A stretch of DNA of 38,524 nucleotides from Haloparvum sedimenti. Lineage in GTDB: Archaea; Halobacteriota; Halobacteria; Halobacteriales; Haloferacaceae. The stretch's first letter is position 1, and the number at the start of each line of letters is the position of its first letter. The stretch is taken from the NCBI RefSeq assembly GCF_001462205.1, contig NZ_LKIR01000116.1, forward strand, positions 15,866-54,389, in the 5' to 3' direction. Of the stretch, positions 25,993-30,891 are shown piece by piece. The position numbers were made by a program, and so were the translations under genes. The notes beneath the pieces were generated by a model. It made no database searches. It saw only the letters and a program-made list of their open reading frames with translations, and was not told the DNA's origin.

Positions 25993-26068
25993 TCGGGGAT
26001 CCCGCTACGTAAGACGGCAACATCTCGAAAGTCCCAGCCGGCTTCCTCTTTCAGTCCTACCCGCTCCG

Positions 26069-26123
26069 CCCCGCAACCACCCCGCAACCACCCCGCAACC
26101 GCCCTGCAACCGCCCCGCAACCG
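26069..26123 (+). repeat. Five tandem 11-bp units
   Basis: Units read CCCCGCAACCA (twice), CCCCGCAACCG, CCCTGCAACCG and CCCCGCAACCG. The strand bias (almost no G on the plus strand) is marked. A related 10-bp array occurs at 35371-35402. Confidence 0.8.
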
Positions 26124-26151
26124 CACGGCAGCCTCGCACCTCCCCAGCCTC

Positions 26152-26200
26152 GGCGGTGGCGCGGCCGCGAAACCGCACAGCAGGCGGCCGCGCCACCGCC
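26152..26200. repeat. 17-bp perfect inverted repeat (strong hairpin)
   Basis: The arm 26152-26168 (GGCGGTGGCGCGGCCGC) is perfectly complementary to 26184-26200, around a 15-nt loop. It would be a very stable hairpin in RNA of either strand. Its position between the ends of convergent genes suggests a bidirectional terminator or RNA-stability element; this is inferred. Confidence 0.75.
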
Positions 26201-26248
26201 TCCCTCGCGCGCGTTCCTCGCGCGCGCCACCGCCGATAAGTGGTGGCT

Positions 26249-26266
26249 CGTGAGTGACAACTCACG
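26249..26266. terminator. Small hairpin downstream of lrp
   Basis: CGTGAGT-GACA-ACTCACG forms a 7-bp perfect stem with a 4-nt loop, about 50 bp beyond the lrp stop. It is a possible transcript end for lrp. Confidence 0.45.
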
Positions 26267-26303: not shown

Positions 26304-26344
26304 CTCGTCGAGGATCAGCCGAGTCGCTCGTCGAGGATCAGCCG
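26304..26344 (-). repeat. Tandem 23-bp-period duplication at the lrp 3' end
   Basis: CTCGTCGAGGATCAGCCG (plus strand) occurs at 26304-26321 and 26327-26344. The second copy encodes RLILDE inside Lrp. The first lies after the stop in a shifted frame and, read in the Lrp frame, would itself have ended RLILDE followed by TAA. Confidence 0.75.
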
Positions 26345-26728
26345 CGTCTTCGTCGACTTGACCTCTTCCATCTCGCGGGCCTGTGAGATCAGGTCGTTGA
26401 CGGCGCGGGTGTCGACCGCGTCGACGATCAGCACGATGTCCTCCTCGCCGGAGACCTGCCAGACGAAGTCGACCTCCGCCCAGTCGGTCATGCGCTCGCC
26501 GACCGCGCTCGTGTCGACGTTCATCTGCACCGAGATCTCGATCATCGCCTTCACGTTCCCCGTTCGCGTCGTCACCGTGAACCGCTCGATGACCCCCTCC
26601 TCAGTCATCCGGTCCACGCGGTTCCGCACGGTCCCCTCGGAGGTGCCCACACGCTCGGCGATCTCCGTGTAGGGAGTTCGCGCGTCCCGTCGGAGGATCG
26701 AGAGGATCTGCCGGTCGAGGTCGTCCAT
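26315..26728 (-). CDS. Lrp/AsnC-family transcriptional regulator
   Basis: This 137-residue regulator has an N-terminal winged helix-turn-helix (DLDRQILSILRRDARTPYTEIAERVGTSEGTVRNRVDRMTEEGVIERF, about 3-50) and a C-terminal RAM effector domain (about 62-132) with VDFVWQVSGEEDIVLIVDAVDT. Lrp/AsnC proteins bind palindromic sites as dimers or octamers in response to amino acids. The ATG at 26728 starts at the conserved MDDLDRQIL. A perfect 7-bp-arm palindrome lies at 26759-26775 in its promoter and recurs upstream of carA, so autoregulation and control of carA are likely. Its effector is unknown. Confidence 0.92.
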   Translation of the reverse strand: MDDLDRQILSILRRDARTPYTEIAERVGTSEGTVRNRVDRMTEEGVIERFTVTTRTGNVKAMIEISVQMNVDTSAVGERMTDWAEVDFVWQVSGEEDIVLIVDAVDTRAVNDLISQAREMEEVKSTKTRLILDERLG

Positions 26729-26758: not shown

Positions 26759-26775
26759 GTTACGAATATCGTAAC
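26759..26775. promoter_or_regulatory. Palindromic operator candidate upstream of lrp
   Basis: GTTACGA-ATA-TCGTAAC, a 17-bp inverted repeat with perfect 7-bp arms, lies 31-47 nt before the lrp ATG. It is next to the probable TATA region GAGTAAG (minus strand, 26752-26758). The identical 17-mer occurs at 29764-29780. It is the best candidate binding site for the Lrp protein; binding itself is inferred. Confidence 0.65.
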
Positions 26776-26854
26776 AGCTCTTCGAACAACGCGGCAAAAT
26801 GGGTTTTCCGGTGCGATCTTCGTAGCAACGCGTCGCTTCTCGAACCGTCGCTCC

Positions 26855-27202
26855 TCACCGGAGCCCGCGCGCCAGCCCCCCGACGACCCCGAGGGCGACC
26901 GCTATCGCGACCGGGGCGGCCGCCAGCGGACCGGCGCCCAGCAGCGGAGCGAGGTCGCCGCTCCCCGACAGCGACAGCGCGAACGCCGCGAGGACGACGA
27001 GCGAGAACGCGGCGCCGTACGCCACGCCGCGCCGGAGGGTCGGCGCGAGCAGGCCCCACGCGCCAGCGCCGAGCAGGATCCCGAGTGGGTGCAGCGTCGC
27101 GAGCGCCACCGCGACCGCGCCCGTTCCCGCGAACGCGACGGCCCGGACGAGGGTGACCCGCGAGCGCCGGTCCGCGGCCGCCCCGGCGCGCCGATCACGC
27201 AT
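26855..27202 (-). CDS. Small hydrophobic membrane protein
   Basis: This 115-residue protein has a basic N-terminus (MRDRRAGAAADRRSR) followed by three or four hydrophobic segments (about 20-52, 60-80 and 88-112) rich in Ala, Gly, Val and Leu. I do not recognise a family. Its ATG at 27202 lies inside the last codons of the acylase gene, an 8-bp overlap, so the two are almost certainly cotranscribed and translationally coupled. A membrane partner or accessory role for the acylase is possible but unproven. Confidence 0.7.
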   Translation of the reverse strand: MRDRRAGAAADRRSRVTLVRAVAFAGTGAVAVALATLHPLGILLGAGAWGLLAPTLRRGVAYGAAFSLVVLAAFALSLSGSGDLAPLLGAGPLAAAPVAIAVALGVVGGLARGLR

Positions 27203-29678
27203 TGTCGGCCTCCGCGAACCGGAACTGCACCTCGCCCGTCGGCTCCAGCCGGAGGGGTTTGTACTCGCCGTCCGCCCAGCGCTTCAGCTGGCTCGCGTAG
27301 CCGTTCGAAAAGGGCCGACCGGAGTTGCCTCCGGGAAGGATCGCGCGCGCCTCGTCGGGCGACCAGAGCATGCGCCAGCTCGACCCGGCCGACGACTCGC
27401 GACGGTAGTTGAACAGCGTGGCCGGCGAGCCGTCCGTCGGGTACGCGGGGTAGTTCAGGAACGACTGCCCGAAGGGGTGCCGGATCGCGGCGGTGGAGTT
27501 CACGTCGCCGTATGTCGTCGCCTCGCCCGCCTCTCGCTCCGCCGTCACGCGATCGACGGCAACCGCGAGGCTCTCGCGCAGCAGGGCGTCCCGGGACCGC
27601 CCACCGAGCCAGTCCCCGTCCGGATCGAGGCCGACGAGGACCCAGTCGGTCGGCCAATCGCCCTCGTCGAGGCCCGCGGCCGCGAACCGGTCGGCGAAGA
27701 CGCGGTCTCGGTAGGCCGCGATCAGGCGGTCGAACAGCAGGGCCGCCTCCGAGTCGCGGGTCATTCGCCGGTCCCAGTCCTCGAGGGTCGCGGCCGCCTC
27801 GCGGAGGGCAGGGTCCGAGTCGCCGTCGGCCGCCGCGACGGCGTCCACCACGAGGGGGACCAGCCGACCCGCGCGACCGTCGCGGACGTCGCGCTGGACG
27901 CTCGCCATGTCGCCGAGCGTGAGGGGTGTCTCCGCCGCGACCGCCGCGTCCAGCCGGTCGTAAACGCGGATCCCGCGCCACGGCGTCGAGTACCCCTCCG
28001 CGAGGTAGTAGGGGTAGGCGTCGTCGTCGACGATCCGCTGGTTGGCGGTCGCCAGCAGGTCGGGGTCCTCGCGGGCCGGCATCTCCTCGAAGGGGATGGC
28101 TCCGGACCAGTCGGGGTCCGGGTCGTAGGGCTCGTAGCCGGGCCACTCGCCCTCCCGCGCGGATCCGTCGTGGACGCGGTCGCCGCGGACCGGCTCGCCG
28201 CCGGTCTCTCGGATCGGAACGCGGCCGGTGACGCGAAACAGGGTGCCGCCGTCGGCGTCGGCCGCGACCAGGCACTGGCTGAACGAGTCGAACGAGCGCG
28301 ACGCCGCGTCGATCTCGGCGACCGTCTCCGCGCGCGGGAACTCCCTGATCGCGGTCGTGACCCCCGAGCCGACCAGGCCGGTCCACGCGATACCCACTTC
28401 TCGGCCCTCCCGGTCGAGGACGGGACCGTGGACGGATTTTCTGACCGCGACCGTCCGGTCCGCTGCGCCCGCGACCGGGATCGTCGCGGTCTCCGTCTCG
28501 AACGCGCGCCACTCGTCGCCGCATCTGTACTCCGCGGGGACCGTGTCCGAGTCGGTCATGTCGTCCTCGACCGCCACCTCCCCGCGCGTCTCGTAGGTGT
28601 AGCAGTCGAGCTGGTCACTGCCCGGGTTGGTGAACCCCCACGCGCAGCGGTCGCTGGCACCGATGACGACGAAGGGGACGCCCGGGAACGTGACGCCGCG
28701 CACGTCCGACTCCGGCGTGGTGACGTGCTGTTCGTACCACACCGGCGGCGCCTGTAGACTCAGGTGGGGATCGTTGGCGAGCAGCGGATCTCCGGAGGCG
28801 GTGTGGGCCCCGGAGACGACCCACGAGTTCGATCCGAACCCTGGCGGCGACTCGAACCCCGAGAGCCACGAAGCGAGGTCCGGGTCCACGTCGGCCGCGG
28901 GCGGCGCGTCGGGTCGCGTCTCGTCTCGCAGTCCGACGCGCCGAGACTCGTCCCCCTCGGGTTCAGCGTCCCGGAGGATCGGCGAGTCGTGGTCGTAGCG
29001 TTGCGGGAACAGTTCAGCGACCGCCGCCTCGCCGAGGGCGTCGCGGAGCGCGGCCCGGCGGAGGCTTCGGAAGCTCCCGGTCAGCGCCCACGCGATCTGT
29101 TTCTCCATCAGCATCGTGTCGACGGGAGTCCACGGCACGGGCTCGTAGTCGAGCAGCCGGAACTCGACGGGGAGGTCTCCCTCCTTCATGCGGGCGTTGA
29201 CCCCGTCAGCGTAGGCGCCGACGGCGTCGCCGGCGGGCGTGTCGCGGATCCGATCCCACGACGCCTCGGCCGCGCGGACGAAGTCCATGCGGACGTGGAA
29301 CTCGTCGGAGCCGAGCGTCGCGGGGCCCACGACCTCCGAGAGGCGACCGCGCATCACGCGCCGCTGGAGGTCGAGCTGGAACAGCCGGTGTGTCGCCTGC
29401 GCGTAGCCGGTGGCGTACGCCGCCGCGAGCTCGTCGTCGGCCGCGACGTGGGGGACTGCTTCCTCGTCGATCCGGACGGTCGCCGGGCCGTGCGGGCTTG
29501 CGACGGTTCCGTCGGCCGGCGGATCGCCCCACGCGGAGCCCGAGAGCGGAGCGAACGCGCGCAGGTAGCCCGCCACGGGCGAGAGGGTCCCGGCGGCGGC
29601 GGTCCCGCCGATGATCGCGCCGATCAGACCGCGCCGCGTCGTGGAGGGTCCGTCTCCTAGATCGGTCACAACTCTCAC
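27195..29678 (-). CDS. Penicillin acylase-family amidase, Tat-exported
   Basis: This 827-residue Ntn-hydrolase is related to penicillin G acylase and acyl-homoserine-lactone acylases, which cut amide bonds after self-processing. The N-terminus has a twin-arginine motif (TTRRGLIG, R15-R16) and a hydrophobic stretch, so Tat export is likely. The alpha-chain region includes AVPHVAADDELAAAYATGYAQ and QLDLQRRVMRGRLSEVVG. The self-cleavage site and nucleophile are seen at G282-S283-N284 (FGSNSWVVSG), followed by LLANDPHLSLQAPPVWYE. Starts at GTG 29678 or 29669 are both possible. Substrate is unknown; quorum-signal or peptide amides are guesses. It lies between lrp and carA. Confidence 0.92.
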   Translation of the reverse strand: MRVVTDLGDGPSTTRRGLIGAIIGGTAAAGTLSPVAGYLRAFAPLSGSAWGDPPADGTVASPHGPATVRIDEEAVPHVAADDELAAAYATGYAQATHRLFQLDLQRRVMRGRLSEVVGPATLGSDEFHVRMDFVRAAEASWDRIRDTPAGDAVGAYADGVNARMKEGDLPVEFRLLDYEPVPWTPVDTMLMEKQIAWALTGSFRSLRRAALRDALGEAAVAELFPQRYDHDSPILRDAEPEGDESRRVGLRDETRPDAPPAADVDPDLASWLSGFESPPGFGSNSWVVSGAHTASGDPLLANDPHLSLQAPPVWYEQHVTTPESDVRGVTFPGVPFVVIGASDRCAWGFTNPGSDQLDCYTYETRGEVAVEDDMTDSDTVPAEYRCGDEWRAFETETATIPVAGAADRTVAVRKSVHGPVLDREGREVGIAWTGLVGSGVTTAIREFPRAETVAEIDAASRSFDSFSQCLVAADADGGTLFRVTGRVPIRETGGEPVRGDRVHDGSAREGEWPGYEPYDPDPDWSGAIPFEEMPAREDPDLLATANQRIVDDDAYPYYLAEGYSTPWRGIRVYDRLDAAVAAETPLTLGDMASVQRDVRDGRAGRLVPLVVDAVAAADGDSDPALREAAATLEDWDRRMTRDSEAALLFDRLIAAYRDRVFADRFAAAGLDEGDWPTDWVLVGLDPDGDWLGGRSRDALLRESLAVAVDRVTAEREAGEATTYGDVNSTAAIRHPFGQSFLNYPAYPTDGSPATLFNYRRESSAGSSWRMLWSPDEARAILPGGNSGRPFSNGYASQLKRWADGEYKPLRLEPTGEVQFRFAEADNA

Positions 29679-29763
29679 ACGGTTGGTGATGTGTTAAGCG
29701 TACCTCCGGTCGTGGGGGCTCTCTCGGTCGTCTCTGACGCAGCGCCGACCGTCTCCGCAGCCG

Positions 29764-29780
29764 GTTACGAATATCGTAAC
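29764..29780. promoter_or_regulatory. Palindromic operator candidate upstream of carA
   Basis: GTTACGA-ATA-TCGTAAC, identical to the site before lrp, is centred 58 nt before the carA ATG. This is upstream of the TATA-like TTATTAC (29800-29806). Downstream, TTCGAACGACGC parallels TTCGAACAACGC beside the lrp copy. Confidence 0.65.
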
Positions 29781-29799
29781 TCTACTTCGAACGACGCAC

Positions 29800-29806
29800 T
29801 TATTAC
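29800..29806 (+). promoter_or_regulatory. TATA element of carA
   Basis: TTATTAC lies 23-30 nt before the carA ATG, the spacing of a leaderless promoter. Confidence 0.55.
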
Positions 29807-29814
29807 GCTTCCTC

Positions 29815-29831
29815 CGTACGTATCTCGTAAT
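29815..29831. promoter_or_regulatory. Second, degenerate operator on the carA start
   Basis: CGTACGTATCTCGTAAT matches the 17-bp palindrome at 12 positions and keeps perfect inner arms TACG-TATCT-CGTA (29817-29829). It covers the predicted transcription start and the first bases of the ATG, so a protein bound here would block carA. Confidence 0.5.
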
Positions 29832-30891
29832 GACGGACGCCTACCTCGCGCTGGAGGACGGCCGCGTGTTCGAGGCGCGCGCGCGTGCTCCGGGGCAGAC
29901 CCGCGGCGAACTGGTGTTCACGACCGCGTATACGGGGTACGAGGAGTCGCTCACCGACCCCTCCTACGCGCAGCAGGTGCTCACCTTCTCCTACCCGCTG
30001 ATCGGGAACTACGGCGTCCGAGACGAGCGGTTCGAGTCCGACCACGTGCAGCCGAGCGCCGCCATCGCCCGTGAGTTCACGGACGACGTGGCCGACTGGC
30101 TGGCGAGCGAGGGCGTCCCGGCGATCGACCACCTCGACACCCGCGAGATCGTGACGAGCGTCCGCGAAGAGGGCGCGATGGCGTGCGGCATCGCGGCGGG
30201 CGAGGACGCGACGCCGGAGGACGCGGTCGCGGAGATGGAGGCGTGCGTCCCGATGAGCGACCACACCGACATCGGCGCGGAGGTGTCGGTCGACGAACCC
30301 GAAGTCCACGACGGCGGCGGCGACTACACCGTCGCGCTGCTGGACTGCGGCGCGAAGGGCTCGATCATCGAGAACCTCACCGCCCGCGGCGCGGACGTGC
30401 ACGTGCTCCCGTACGACGCGACGCCCGAGGCGGTTTCGGCCGTGAATCCCGATGTCGTGTTCGTCTCGAACGGGCCGGGCGATCCGGAGAACTTCGAGGC
30501 CGCACAGACGGTCGCGGAGGCGTTCGCCGGCGACGTGCCGCTTGCGGGCATCTGCCTCGGCCAGCAGATCGTCGCCTCGGCGCTCGGCGGGTCGACGGAG
30601 AAGATGGCGTTCGGCCACCGCGGCGTCAACCAGCCCGTCCGCGACCTGGAGACGAACCGCGTCGTGATGACGACCCAGAACCACGGCTACACGGTCGCGG
30701 ACCCCGGTCCGCTGGAGGTGACGCAGGTGAACGTCAACGACGACACCCCCGAGGGGCTCGACAGCGAGGACCTCGACATCATCACGCGCCAGTATCACCC
30801 CGAGGCCAACCCCGGCCCGAACGACAGCCTCGACTTCTTCGACGACGTGCTGGACCTGGCGACCTCGCGCTCGCCCGTCACGGCCGACTGA
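29830..30891 (+). CDS. carA: Carbamoyl phosphate synthase small (glutaminase) subunit
   Basis: This 353-residue subunit hydrolyses glutamine and passes ammonia to CarB for carbamoyl phosphate synthesis, feeding arginine and pyrimidine pathways. The N-terminal CPSase domain starts MTDAYLALEDGRVFEARA, with FTTAYTGYEESLTDPSY. The amidotransferase domain has NGPGDPENFEAA, nucleophile C242 (AGICLGQQIV), and the catalytic H322/E324 (YHPEANPGP). The ATG at 29830 follows a TATA element by about 25 nt. Two palindromic operator candidates precede it. carB is not downstream; the next gene is on the opposite strand. Confidence 0.95.
   Translation: MTDAYLALEDGRVFEARARAPGQTRGELVFTTAYTGYEESLTDPSYAQQVLTFSYPLIGNYGVRDERFESDHVQPSAAIAREFTDDVADWLASEGVPAIDHLDTREIVTSVREEGAMACGIAAGEDATPEDAVAEMEACVPMSDHTDIGAEVSVDEPEVHDGGGDYTVALLDCGAKGSIIENLTARGADVHVLPYDATPEAVSAVNPDVVFVSNGPGDPENFEAAQTVAEAFAGDVPLAGICLGQQIVASALGGSTEKMAFGHRGVNQPVRDLETNRVVMTTQNHGYTVADPGPLEVTQVNVNDDTPEGLDSEDLDIITRQYHPEANPGPNDSLDFFDDVLDLATSRSPVTAD

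Follow-up and report, generated by a model that had tools for sequence, protein, structure and literature searches.

The window, the whole stretch of 38,524 nucleotides that we analyzed, comes from Haloparvum sedimenti (assembly GCF_001462205.1, contig NZ_LKIR01000116.1, positions 15,866 to 54,389; genome size, 3.24 Mb), a genus that is monotypic here and is represented as a whole by this one genome. The minus strand carries lrp (26315 to 26728, ATG at 26728), which encodes a 137-aa regulator of the Lrp/AsnC (feast/famine) family. Both the helix-turn-helix and the ligand-binding domain of that family are present, with scores above the Pfam cut-offs (PF13404 [HTH_AsnC-type], 70.6 bits, E value of 9e-20; PF01037 [AsnC_trans_reg], 46.9 bits, E value of 3e-12); scores for LysM, LrpA1, and Lrp are below the NCBIfam cut-offs. 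On the plus strand is carA (29830 to 30891), which encodes the small subunit of glutamine-hydrolysing carbamoyl-phosphate synthase (TIGR01368; 359.7 bits, above the cut-off). Two genes, both on the minus strand and transcribed toward lrp, lie between them. The first (27195 to 29678; GTG start at 29678, alternative GTG at 29669) encodes an 827-aa protein of the penicillin-amidase family of N-terminal nucleophile hydrolases (PF01804; 594.5 bits, E value of 6e-178, profile positions 1 to 670 of 675), and its predicted translation contains a GSNSW motif and starts with a twin-arginine-like N-terminal sequence. The second, an open reading frame at 26855 to 27202 that overlaps the acylase stop, encodes a small hydrophobic protein (115 aa), probably of the membrane.

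The acylase pair is bracketed by a direct repeat. Positions 26759 to 26792 and 29764 to 29797 are identical at 29 of 34 positions (85%), and no other direct-repeat family in the region is longer. When both intergenic stretches were shuffled, the best match reached at most 21 of 34 positions, which confirms the repeat that had been reported in a preliminary description of this DNA. Each copy begins with the 17-bp palindrome GTTACGAATATCGTAAC (operator 1). The palindrome has two exact copies in the genome, both at the lrp-carA locus, and the next-best genomic site has 2 mismatches. The left copy (op1-L, 26759 to 26775) precedes the lrp ATG by 30 bp; the right copy (op1-R, 29764 to 29780) is upstream of carA. 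As had also been noted, the similarity reaches past the palindrome: 12 of the other 17 positions are identical, chiefly CTTCGAAC-R-ACGC, with the CTTCGAAC element at 26780 to 26787 on the left and at 29785 to 29792 on the right. The right copy is followed by a TATA-like element of carA (ACTTATTA, 29798 to 29805, plus strand) and by a second operator (op2-R, TACGTATCTCGTA, 29817 to 29829) that abuts the carA start codon.

The preliminary description held that the left block leads nowhere. This was wrong, because the left block has its own second operator, a degenerate one (op2-L, core TGCGATCTTCGTA, 26811 to 26826). Its center is 51 bp from that of op1-L, the same spacing as between op1-R and op2-R. 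We built an operator matrix from the operators of other genomes and scored it on 38,510 positions of the window; the two palindromes ranked first, op2-R third, and op2-L fourth. The putative duplicated unit is therefore larger than 34 bp and includes a second operator at a fixed distance. Between the left and right arrays is an inserted block of 2,937 bp (26827 to 29763), in which the acylase and membrane protein genes are the only genes recognized; it has no transposase or integrase gene. Among the 25 longest inverted-repeat pairs, none joins the two ends of the block (26827 and 29763).

A compact control region in most haloarchaea

We surveyed the gap between lrp and carA in 198 genomes: 112 genomes of the family (those with lrp and carA on one contig), 42 further Halorubrum genomes, and 44 genomes of other families (the lrp-carA pairs that could be measured). 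The survey of Halorubrum (genus g14) took in 53 genomes. The two genes are compact and divergent, with a gap of 96 to 103 bp, in 186 of the 198 haloarchaeal genomes, from many families of the order. Gaps of 96 to 99 bp were found in 108 of the 112 family genomes, gaps of 96 or 97 bp in 34 of the 42 further Halorubrum genomes, and gaps of 96 to 103 bp in all 44 genomes of other families. The adjacency of lrp and carA in other haloarchaea, which the preliminary description had mentioned, is borne out, and its suggestion that the two genes once shared one divergent region is supported. We concluded that these gaps support, as the ancestral state, one compact divergent region common to lrp and carA.

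Wherever the sequence of a compact region was read, it had a single palindrome. Four blocks are nearly invariant: operator 1 (TTACGAATTTCGTAA), matching op1-R of the window; TTCGAACGACGC, with the CTTCGAAC element; a TATA-like CTTATTA approximately 25 to 32 bp upstream of the carA ATG; and TACGTWTCTCGTA directly before that ATG. The sequence TACGTWTCTCGTA-ATG is highly conserved among 60 aligned compact genomes. This last block is an imperfect operator and, in the window, is centered 51 bp from operator 1. In three genomes of genus g4 (G003, G030, and G050), which are only 70 to 80% complete, carA was found and an lrp orthologue was not. In two others (G123, locus L149; G144, locus L155), the carA match is in two pieces, as if frameshifted or interrupted, and the compact control region is intact.

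Split control regions and their cargo

The remaining 12 of the 198 genomes are split; they are the window genome and 11 Halorubrum genomes, among them Hrr. aquaticum, cibi, rubrum, halodurans, and alkaliphilum. Four of them belong to the family set, with gaps of 3101 bp (the window genome) and of 653, 791, and 794 bp (three Halorubrum genomes). The other eight Halorubrum genomes have gaps of 265, 266, 299, 382, 392, and 11,579 bp or, in two cases, have the two genes on different contigs. The window genome thus has no single control region common to lrp and carA, and its arrays are 3 kb apart. In the literature that we searched, we found no described split of the lrp-carA region. One locus of the Halorubrum type of split (L163) is from a strain named Halobellus captivus ZY8 that falls within the Halorubrum genus group and may be misnamed.

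On the right side, all 12 split genomes keep the blocks of the compact region, and conservation does not extend upstream of operator 1. On the left side, the distance from the op1-L core to the lrp ATG is also kept in all 12. The left CTTCGAAC element is present in 11 of the 12 (with one mismatch in G154) and is degenerate in G153. An op2-L of the form TGCGAT[C/G]TTCG[C/T]AG stands at exactly +51 from operator 1 in 11 of the 12; the left side of G153 has no recognizable op2-L. Positions 38 to 51 between the left sites are mostly unconserved. The op2-L core differs from op2-R and is common to the window genome and 10 Halorubrum genomes. The two copies of operator 1 are identical at 17 of 17 positions in the window genome, versus 12 to 15 of 17 in Halorubrum. 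The left array is, by its sequence, a carA-type operator array without the TATA box.

What lies between the arrays varies. Two Halorubrum genomes have a pyridoxamine 5′-phosphate oxidase-like gene (detected as PF12900 in G037; G088 has homologous DNA). The block in G153 is 11.4 kb long and encodes an oligopeptide ABC transporter, M28 and M20 peptidases, and a TldD-like protein. Three genomes (G056, G128, and G136) have related repeat-rich DNA, and in five (G127, G145, G120, G141, and G154) there is only a spacer of ~85 to 210 bp. Since the 11 Halorubrum genomes are doubled without the acylase, some with just 85 to 210 bp of spacer, the doubling needs no acylase, and the split does not depend on it. 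The two operator copies are thus conserved independently of the acylase, and the claim that its entry left a duplicated operator behind is not supported. In G136 (Halorubrum rubrum), lrp with the left array and carA with the right array are on different contigs (L150 and L151). Both contigs run far past the arrays, with related repeat-like DNA after the left array and before the right one, and the locus looks rearranged.

Relatives of the acylase occur in 44 other genomes of the 118 in the family, and never between lrp and carA. At that position the pair is found in the window genome alone and is absent from the 197 other genomes, so that a place there throughout the order was rejected. At other loci, which the preliminary description had proposed to search, the pair was found in many haloarchaea: acylases are directly followed by proteins 38 to 48% identical to the membrane protein or by hydrophobic reading frames of the same size, so that the same two genes occur in the same order at many other places in the order. 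The acylase of the window is only ~50 to 58% identical to the relatives found (58% being the maximum), and its operon is the only one between lrp and carA. Because the two genes stand side by side at other haloarchaeal loci, they most likely arrived as a ready-made unit. An origin of the acylase from a Halorubrum-type locus was unsupported; the tree places it, weakly, with genera g2, g9, and g15, away from the Halorubrum copies.

The 12 split genomes are not monophyletic in trees of lrp plus carA or of rpoB. Approximately unbiased (AU) tests rejected monophyly of all 12 (P = 0.0006 for lrp plus carA; P near 0 for rpoB), which rules out a single clade of split genomes, and likewise rejected monophyly of the 11 that belong to Halorubrum (P = 0.018 and 5e-5, respectively). 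A clade of the ten Halorubrum genomes that carry op2-L is possible (P = 0.43 and 0.26, respectively).

Probable identity of the regulator and candidate targets

In Halobacterium salinarum, the regulator Trh3 is encoded next to carA, and the shared promoter holds two conserved signals (Ashworth et al. 2014; PMC4177876). Chromatin immunoprecipitation detected Trh3 at the trh3, carA, and carB promoters of that species, and autoregulation of trh3 was inferred in a study that compared 18 haloarchaea; the text of that paper mentions neither pyrB nor Halorubrum (PMC4177876). Gene order makes it most likely that the window lrp is orthologous to trh3. Its effector may be arginine or lysine, which were suggested for Trh3.

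After the two palindromes, the next-best operator of the H. sedimenti genome is upstream of pyrB, which encodes aspartate carbamoyltransferase, the enzyme that follows in the pyrimidine pathway (contig C32; L003, 1501 to 1517). An operator-like site also precedes pyrB in a second genome (G112; L012, 1501 to 1517). In genus g2, an operator lies upstream of a carB-like start (L007 and L008, 1501 to 1517) and is followed by a TATA-like CTTATTA; the call is based on a translation that begins like the large subunit of carbamoyl-phosphate synthase. The sites before pyrB suggest this gene as another candidate target, and all of these sites are in line with a putative regulon for carbamoyl phosphate, pyrimidines, and arginine.

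Discussion

The regulatory rearrangement at this locus is real and well supported. We consider it probable that one bidirectional control region doubled, such that each gene obtained a Trh3-type array, and that the spacer then took up unrelated genes. In the ancestor, a region of ~97 bp would have held one array (operator 1, CTTCGAAC, and operator 2 at 51 bp) that served both genes. In one direction this array would have mediated autoregulation of lrp, and in the other it would have controlled carA. This region would have doubled in the window genome and in part of Halorubrum. carA would have retained the original array with the TATA box, and lrp would have obtained a second array of the same architecture without it. 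The DNA between the arrays, free of regulatory duty, could then have taken up a different cargo in each lineage, which in the window lineage would have been the ready-made acylase and membrane protein operon. We predict that regulation is preserved, given that a full set of Trh3-type sites remains at each gene; binding of the regulator to op2-L and autoregulation of lrp in the window genome would follow from this scheme. Of the interpretation in the preliminary description, the ancestral compact region stands (186 of 198 genomes) and the acylase as the cause of the doubling is not supported (11 split Halorubrum genomes lack it). Because the split genomes fall into more than one clade, a doubling before the entry of the acylase in the Haloparvum lineage is no more than an inference; we know of no split relative of this monotypic genus that lacks the acylase.

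Either the region doubled about three times, or it doubled once and the copies collapsed by recombination at least three times. The second history would place the doubling before the divergence of Haloparvum and Halorubrum, followed by several scarless collapses through the operator copies, and we give it somewhat less than an even chance. The odd op2-L core at exactly +51, unlike op2-R and common to the window genome and 10 Halorubrum genomes, favors one origin of the arrays, and deletion between direct repeats would be expected to give back exactly the compact spacing. However, at least three collapses would be needed (in genus g12, in G146 and G159, and in the main Halorubrum group), against three doublings for the alternative, provided that the ten Halorubrum genomes with op2-L form a single clade, and no collapse scar is identifiable. 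The trees, for their part, favor several origins of the split, and the identical operator 1 copies of the window genome would be consistent with a more recent doubling that took place independently.

The strict form of the model in the preliminary description, in which the acylase pair was inserted into one region shared by the two genes and this event directly produced the 34-bp repeat (by target duplication or duplicative recombination), seems to us unlikely. The repeat does bracket the insert, the operator 1 copies of the window genome are identical, its split does not form a clade with those of Halorubrum, and the region is compact in its nearest relatives (genus g12). However, a target duplication of 34 bp would be unusually long, and the insert has neither a transposase nor terminal inverted repeats at its ends. 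Furthermore, the left array also carries operator 2 at the same 51-bp spacing, so that the duplicated or selected unit would be ~67 bp, and 10 Halorubrum genomes without the acylase have the same left-array architecture. We rejected a mobile element that duplicated 34 bp of its target: the transposase and terminal repeats are missing, and the repeat is regulatory.

Another reading is that the acylase pair joined the Trh3 regulon because it came to lie between the arrays. The acylase start is ~85 bp from op1-R, which lies upstream of it, and transcription of the pair runs toward lrp. We nevertheless find this improbable, since the presumed acylase promoter lies well downstream of the operator and the cargo varies among split genomes, several of which have none. 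That the two palindromes are independent, always-present operators, unrelated by duplication, we regard as highly improbable: each copy is at a functional distance from its own gene, but 186 of 198 genomes are compact, with one palindrome wherever read, and the similarity runs through CTTCGAAC-R-ACGC to operator 2 at equal spacing.

The Trh3-carA-carB circuit of H. salinarum (PMC4177876) likewise has an Lrp-family gene divergent from carA and two regulator-like sites. In H. salinarum one promoter is shared by both genes, whereas in the window genome it is doubled, and the copies are separated by 2.9 kb with cargo.

Ss-LrpB of Sulfolobus is an archaeal Lrp-type autoregulator with several regularly spaced boxes in its own control region. 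The window resembles that system in having several operator boxes at a fixed spacing ahead of the gene that encodes the regulator itself, and it differs in the spacing (51 bp in the window) and in the sequence of the boxes.

The split genomes can be read as a natural promoter dissection, since the sites left beside lrp show what autoregulation would need. Operator 1, CTTCGAAC, and operator 2 at a fixed spacing were kept there and the TATA box was lost, which yields a testable prediction of how the regulator binds. These genomes also show that a tightly conserved divergent control region of ~100 bp can open to new genes without loss of its operator sites. Tentatively, we suggest a broader reading, which may well prove too strong: a bidirectional archaeal promoter would have been split repeatedly in nature, with lrp needing the whole array each time, the spacer serving as a recurrent landing place, and recombination between the arrays being able to erase the event without trace. 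If this is true, lrp also needs a site that in compact genomes had seemed to be only a start-site element of carA.

Downstream of lrp, at 26040 to 26260, the window has a low-complexity block of repeated CCCCGCAACC units. Short parts of this block resemble repeat-rich DNA that lies between the arrays of Halorubrum G136 and close to the locus in other genomes.
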